From the NCBI GenBank assembly GCA_027490225.1, contig JAIXYK010000056.1, positions 1 through 42,151 on the forward strand: a DNA stretch of 42,151 bases. Direction: 5' to 3'. The position numbers and the translations under genes are program-made. Within the stretch, counting starts at the first letter, position 1; each line of letters starts with the position of its first letter. The notes under the pieces are model-generated. The model was not told where the DNA came from, did not search any database, and saw only the letters and a program-made list of their open reading frames with translations. This document shows positions 16,682 through 31,798 of this stretch, one piece after another. Origin of the DNA: Bacteroidota bacterium. Its GTDB lineage: Bacteria > Bacteroidota > Bacteroidia > M30B66.

Positions 16682-16711
16682 TTGTATAATAGAAACAAGT
16701 TACTATCTTTG
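16682..16711 (+). promoter_or_regulatory. Promoter of the rpsL ribosomal operon
   Basis: TTG (16682-16684), a 19-nt spacer and TATCTTTG (16704-16711) match the Bacteroidota consensus exactly. The bases that follow (CGCTCCC) are GC-rich in an AT-rich setting, as in discriminators of promoters under stringent control. The spacer contains AAACAAGTT, repeated at the same place in the rplP promoter. The leader to the rpsL ATG is about 65 nt and has no Shine-Dalgarno sequence. Confidence 0.85.
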
Positions 16712-16779
16712 CGCTCCCAAAAAAAGGGCGAAGACAGAATTAAGAGTATTTAACATCCATAAAATCAAAACAGTAAAGC

Positions 16780-23329: not shown

Positions 23330-24073
23330 ATGGGACAAAAAGCAAATCCAATTGGTCTTCGTTTAGGCATCGTTAGAGGATGGGATTCTAACTGGTACGG
23401 AGGAAGAAATTTTACAGATAAACTTGTAGAAGATCACAAAATAAGAAAATACTTGAGTGCTCGCTTAACAAAAGCAGGTGTTTCAAAAATCATTATTGAA
23501 AGAACTTTAAAATTAGTTACTGTAACTATAAATACTGCCAGACCAGGAATTATTATTGGTAAAGGTGGTCAAGAAGTTGATAAACTTAAAGAAGAGCTTA
23601 AAAAACTAACTAAAAAGGAAGTTCAAATTAACATCTTCGAAATTAAAAGACCAGAATTAGACGCAAGATTAGTTGCAGATGGCATAGCTAGACAAATTGA
23701 AGGAAGAATCTCTTTTAGAAGGGCTTTAAAAACGGCAATTTCAACTACAATGCGCATGGGAGCAGAAGGAATAAAGTGCAAGGTTTCAGGTCGCTTAGGT
23801 GGTGCGGAAATGGCACGTACTGAAGGTTACAAAGATGGAAGAACACCTCTTCATACCTTGAGAGCTGATATTGATTACGCTTTATCAGAGGCACACACTA
23901 CATATGGTAGAATAGGAATCAAAGTTTGGATTTGTAAAGGTGAAATCTATGGCAAAAGAGATTTATCTCCAAATATTGGTATGCCTACACAAAAATCAAC
24001 AGGAGAAAGATCAAATCAACCTCCAAATGATCGCGATAGAGATCGTGGAAGAGGTAGAAAAAGAGGAAAATAA
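23330..24073 (+). CDS. rpsC: 30S ribosomal protein S3
   Basis: The mRNA-entry protein of the 30S, 247 residues. It has the N-terminal [13 protein letters not shown], a KH domain with loop [13 protein letters not shown] and the C-terminal domain [26 protein letters not shown] (helicase-like Arg residues kept). The last ~20 residues form an Arg/Asp/Gly tail ([14 protein letters not shown]) longer than in E. coli (233 residues). It is the last gene before a strong intrinsic terminator, which is unusual because rplP normally follows directly. Confidence 0.97.
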
Positions 24074-24079
24074 AAAAAT

Positions 24080-24106
24080 AGGGAGGCTTTAACTCCCTTT
24101 TTTTTT
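24080..24106 (+). terminator. Rho-independent terminator between rpsC and rplP
   Basis: GGGAG (24081-24085), a 7-nt loop and CTCCC (24093-24097), followed by nine T residues; an A/T pair extends the stem and an A tract before it could pair with the T tract, so it may also work on the other strand. It starts 7 nt after the rpsC stop. Confidence 0.88.
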
Positions 24107-24178
24107 GAGACGTACCAAGGTATACAGCCAAAATTAAATTAAAACAAGAAAAACGTTGAAATTTTTTTCATTCTCTTG

Positions 24179-24208
24179 TTGGAAATATAAAACAAGTTTA
24201 TATCTTTG
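24179..24208 (+). promoter_or_regulatory. Second ribosomal promoter, upstream of rplP
   Basis: TTG (24179-24181), a 19-nt spacer and TATCTTTG (24201-24208), then GC-rich CCGTCCCC. The -33, the -7, a 9-nt spacer block AAACAAGTT (24190-24198) and the position of a TCCC run all coincide with the rpsL promoter. The leader to the rplP ATG is about 70 nt. Confidence 0.85.
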
Positions 24209-24282
24209 CCGTCCCCAAAATAGCACTATTAAAAGTGTAGAATAAAGGAAAATCATTAATATAACACGATAATTCAAATACA

Positions 24283-24711
24283 ATGTTACAGCCGAAACGT
24301 ACCAAGTACAGGAAGCAGCACAAAATGAAAATGAAGGGCAACGCAACTCGTGGTCATGAGTTAGCATTTGGCTCTTTTGGAATAAAAGCAATGGAAGGTG
24401 TCTGGATGACTGCCCGTCAAATTGAAGCTGCACGTATTGCTGTAACGCGTTACATGAAACGTGAAGGTCAAATTTGGATTAGAATTTTTCCAGATAAGCC
24501 AATCACCAAAAAACCAGCTGAAGTAAGGATGGGTAAGGGTAAAGGAGCTCCAGAACTTTGGGTTGCTGTTGTAAAGCCTGGAACTATCATCTTTGAAGCC
24601 GAAGGAGTTACTATGGAAGTTGCAAAAGAAGCATTAAGATTAGCTGCACAAAAATTACCAGTTACTACGAAGTTTATTGTAAGAAGAGATTACGTAGAAG
24701 CAAACGCATAA
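24283..24711 (+). CDS. rplP: 50S ribosomal protein L16
   Basis: A protein of the 50S near the A site, 142 residues. The N-terminal [41 protein letters not shown] and the [17 protein letters not shown] block identify it. It is the first gene of the second ribosomal transcript, 209 nt after rpsC, whereas all other gaps in the cluster are under 40 nt. rpmC follows by 4 nt. Confidence 0.98.
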
Positions 24712-31681: not shown

Positions 31682-31798
31682 ATGAAAGTAAAAACTTCCA
31701 TCAAAAAACGAAGCGCGGAATGCAAAATTGTACGCCGCAAAGGGAGACTTTATGTAATAAACAAAAAGAATCCTAAATTTAAACAACGTCAAGGTTAA
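31682..31798 (+). CDS. rpmJ: 50S ribosomal protein L36, zinc-free form
   Basis: A 38-residue protein, too short for many gene callers. It reads [10 protein letters not shown], then [20 protein letters not shown] and PKFKQRQG. The overall pattern is L36, but of the four zinc ligands of the classical form (three Cys and one His) only one Cys (Cys14) is left, so this is a C-minus variant. It lies 7 nt after infA and 21 nt before rpsM, the usual position. Confidence 0.95.

Follow-up and report, generated by a model that had tools for sequence, protein, structure and literature searches.

In Escherichia coli, the boundary between the S10 and the spc operons falls between rpsQ and rplN. In Bacteroides thetaiotaomicron, rpsC and rplP are, as we take it, both inside one long stretch of ribosomal transcript. 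Transcripts in this species extend to about 18 kb, with the ribosomal operons among the longest (PMC7366714). As to how the cluster comes apart, the series described by Brandis (PMC8046335) for the Gammaproteobacteria and the Bacilli has gene insertion between operons as its first step and separation as its second.

Here we describe a ribosomal supercluster of an uncultured member of the Bacteroidia that is interrupted at a different point, between rpsC and rplP. We are largely confident that this interruption is a transcription-unit boundary inherited within one Bacteroidia family, that the promoters on its two sides belong to one class, and that the two halves of the cluster later came apart in one member of the family (G004).

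The rpsC-rplP junction in the window

In the window, by which we mean the whole stretch of 42,151 nucleotides that was analysed, the supercluster extends from rpsL (16780) to rplQ (end 34801) and is followed by carA. The gene for S3, rpsC (23330..24073, forward strand; TIGR01009 300 bits, cut-off 114.5), would be the last gene of a first transcription unit, and the gene for L16, rplP (24283..24711, forward strand; TIGR01164 197.6 bits, cut-off 76.85), the first gene of a second one, extending to rplQ. The rpsC stop codon ends at 24073 and rplP starts at 24283, leaving a gap of 209 nt, while every other gap between rpsL and rplQ is under 40 nt, the same values as given by the first-pass annotation. 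Within this series, rpmJ is read at about 31682-31798. The rplQ product, L17 (34316-34801), is longer than usual, with a match, below cut-off, to the NCBIfam 'sunset domain variant' model.

About 7 nt 3' of the rpsC stop codon, a predicted intrinsic-type terminator is found (24080..24106, forward strand), AGGGAG-7 nt-CTCCCT followed by T8, in which a GC-rich stem of 6 bp with a 7-nt loop runs straight into the T run. As this stem is short, some leakage is possible, and polymerase coming from the rpsL promoter likely reads through to some extent. The TTG of a promoter of the Bacteroidota primary-sigma type begins 73 nt past the terminator (24179-24181) and is followed, after N19, by TATCTTTG at 24201-24208 (promoter 24179..24208, forward strand), thus combining a TAnnTTTG box with a TTG about 19 nt upstream, the motif at -33 being a short one. 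A scan of the window for sigma-70 promoters was also made and was discarded as uninformative in Bacteroidota. The stem, the T tract and the promoter elements had all been recognized in the first-pass annotation, and all are present. It had also placed a 5' end near 24214; the promoter box in Flavobacterium, at -12 to -5 (PMC9723704; PMC6847099), together with the family alignment of the conserved discriminator and start region CCGTCCCCAAAATAGC (24209..24224, forward strand), shifts the predicted +1 to 24213, five nt past the G of the box and about 70 nt before rplP. Neither element is significant alone, with 12 terminator-like sites in the window versus 11.1 expected from shuffles and 58 occurrences of TANNTTTG versus 65 expected, and their significance comes from their position and from their conservation across the family, not from counts in the window.

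One further observation concerns the spacer itself. The stretch at 24107-24133, GAGACGTACCAAG..TACAGCCAAAA, is similar to the start of rplP (24287-24316), with a shared 13-mer of at most one mismatch, a match seen in one of 1000 shuffles. It was not seen in the relatives and may be a degenerate duplicate of that start.

Conservation in the family and a shared promoter class

The comparison set was made up of rplP with the sequence upstream of it, taken from 60 related genomes (that of the window among them) and from 80 named loci, most of the genomes being draft assemblies. The window belongs to a family of uncultured Bacteroidia represented by ten genomes, a fully supported clade in a FastTree phylogeny of six ribosomal proteins. 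Two of the named loci, L032 and L033, match the family members G007 and G002. In nine of the ten, the genes on either side of the gap keep their order and orientation, and the gap measures 209, 213, 243, 244, 256, 257, 265, 276 or 278 nt. In all nine, a GC hairpin is followed directly by six or more T, and its sequence differs between genomes, the predicted terminator thus being preserved through sequence turnover. The promoter is present in all ten, reading TGTTG-N19-TATCTTTGCCGTCCCCAAAATA with few changes, and is near-identical although the surrounding spacers have diverged. Outside the family, in 47 genomes of the class and 78 named Bacteroidota loci with rpsC and rplP adjacent, the gap is only about 2-107 nt (relatives, about 2-100 nt; remaining named loci, 10-107 nt). 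The aberrant gaps initially returned for L050 and L142 are artefacts of the gap script, both genes being adjacent there; the separation in L133 is real. The comparison of this gap among related genomes had been proposed in the first-pass annotation as a check on its claim that the cluster is split into two transcription units at rpsC|rplP, and, with the junction wide in the family and tight in other Bacteroidia, it lends that claim good support. One unrelated irregularity was seen in the assembly G005, where a second rpsL, partial and diverged (L157, G005:C110:29409-29582), lies at the end of a contig, ahead of rpsG and fusA, in addition to a normal rpsL on C39; the contig is perhaps chimeric or contaminated.

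The promoter before rplP is not a solitary one. The motif TTG-N18-20-TANNTTTGC-N2-3-CCC has 22 matches in the genome of the window (G000) and none in the reversed control, and TTTGC-N2-3-CCC behind TTG-N18-20 is found mainly before translation genes. Sixteen of the 22 matches precede genes for ribosomal proteins (rplP, rpsL, rpmG, yceD of the rpmF unit, rplM, rpsF, rplU and rpsP) or tRNAs (Met, Glu, two Leu, Ser, Phe, Gly and Val, by aragorn), gene names other than those of tRNAs and profile-matched genes being read from translations. Two more matches are located where contig C41 ends and likely precede an rRNA operon lying outside the visible contig, and four precede other genes. Two examples of the motif are at 16682-16718 and 24179-24215. 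The former is the promoter of rpsL and the str-S10 unit, TTG-N19-TATCTTTGCGCTCCC (16682..16718, forward strand), which is of the same class as that of rplP and precedes rpsL in each of the ten genomes of the family. Both halves of the cluster are thus preceded by one promoter class, TGTTG-N19-TATCTTTGC..TCCC. In most of the other genomes of the class, too, the motif is more frequent than in its control. A class-wide promoter survey returned mostly unrelated genes, and its matches in G323 and G228 are not rplP. The suggestion of the first-pass annotation that the boundary would let the two halves be set separately finds no support here: since both promoters belong to a class concentrated on translation genes, it is more likely that a second full ribosome-class promoter keeps the halves in step.

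Separation of the two halves and rival explanations

The tenth family genome, G004, presents the two halves physically apart, the block from rpsL to rpsC on contig C5 and the block from rplP to rplQ on C114, with neither broken junction (after rpsC, before rplP) at a contig end. Downstream of its rpsC come a strong hairpin with a T run and then a convergent fumC; upstream of its rplP come an unrelated gene, coding for a secreted-protein C-terminal region, and then TGTTG-N19-TATCTTTGCCCTCCC. Other examples come from outside the family. In f39 (G047 and G086), rplP is apart from rpsC. In f10 (G287), rplP is downstream of pdxJ, likewise apart from rpsC, which is followed by a terminator. The separated rplP of G004, f39 and f10 has a TTTGC..CCC promoter in each case. 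In f63 (G205 and G320; L213 and L212), rpsC and rplP are adjacent, with a TACTTTTGC box in the gap, in which no obvious terminator was seen. If these families did not inherit a single break, the class appears to have seen three or more breaks at this junction.

These data suggest the following model. Polymerase starting at the rpsL promoter would end at the hairpin and T run after rpsC, and a new round would begin at the ribosome-class promoter before rplP and read through to rplQ, with initiation of the two halves most likely staying matched, as both promoters are of the same class. With the second half having its own promoter, adjacency would no longer be needed, and the halves could come apart as they are in G004. 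Most simply, the ancestor of the family would have gained the terminator and the promoter while rpsC and rplP were adjacent, G004 separating later; this order rests on parsimony, as the position of G004 as the first branch of the family is weakly supported (0.655 for the other nine). The alternative order, of separation followed by rejoining, is possible and needs more steps.

A different reading of the junction, which we consider rather unlikely, is that of a leaky boundary, where the hairpin ends only part of the transcripts, the promoter boosts the distal genes and a single long mRNA remains the main product. The conserved order and orientation of the flanking genes in nine of ten genomes and the mere six GC-rich pairs of the window's stem agree with it, but the terminator is kept in all relatives despite sequence turnover, the rplP promoter is a full ribosome-class one, and rplP in G004 is out of reach of any read-through from rpsC. 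That the junction is a product of chance, an expanded spacer in which the DNA is T-rich and a -7 box has turned up at random, would agree with motif counts in the window that do not exceed shuffles; it is, however, refuted by the conservation of both elements in ten genomes over diverged spacers, and with the promoter class enriched before translation genes we give it hardly any credence.

Somewhat more doubtful than the leaky boundary is a separately tunable second unit, in which a ribosomal protein encoded between rplP and rplQ would bind the rplP 5' leader (24213..24282, forward strand) and repress the unit. Independent tuning via such a leader is possible, the candidate structure being a 5' C-run predicted by folding to enclose a hairpin by pairing with a G-run further downstream. 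This architecture is found in all ten family leaders versus 3.3 expected from dinucleotide shuffling (P 2.5e-6 under independence), and in eight of eight versus 2.5 expected with two close relatives dropped, but it was defined post hoc, after the folds had been viewed, and the genomes are related. The mean folding z of the rplP leaders is about -2, while rpsL leaders do not fold above shuffles (mean z -0.4). Against this, the copy in the window folds weakly (-4.7 kcal/mol), no consensus emerges from RNAalifold run on the leader alignment, as the hairpin arms do not align, an Rfam search gives nothing at gathering score and only chance-level matches (E up to 5), and G086 of f39 does not share the architecture. 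The rplP leader may thus fold into a family-wide structure, a candidate at this stage. By comparison with these alternatives, we favor the inherited boundary with matched promoters. A broader proposal, that the Bacteroidia supercluster recurrently comes apart at rpsC|rplP, with a ribosome-class promoter gained before separation and the family leader acting as an undescribed regulatory RNA, is one we put forward only tentatively and consider improbable as a whole.

Comparison with known systems

Structured 5' leaders before ribosomal protein operons, the r-leaders, are already a known kind in Bacteroidota (PMC7247131); the text of that report does not mention L16 or rplP, and no Rfam family matches the leader described here. 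The promoters share elements and spacing with the primary-sigma promoters of Bacteroidota (TTG/TTTG at -33, TAnnTTTG at -7), and the translation-gene subset differs from these in adding C-N2-3-CCC behind the -7 box, an addition for which no description was found in the literature searched. TTTGC..CCC may provide a simple sequence mark for translation-gene promoters in Bacteroidota.

Overall, the break-up of a near-universal cluster can be followed here as a comparable series: joined, joined but with a predicted cut in transcription, and physically separate with the same promoter retained, the apparent transcription break in the relatives and the physical break in G004 being at the same junction, rpsC|rplP. 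As in E. coli with its S10 and spc operons, one gene series would be read as two units, but a boundary at rpsC|rplP places L16, L29 and S17 on the spc side. As in the Brandis series (PMC8046335), the same cluster loses its linkage stepwise, with full separation in some species; in contrast to that series, the first visible step here is a non-coding one, a putative terminator plus promoter within what is classically the S10 operon, and it is seen in the Bacteroidia.
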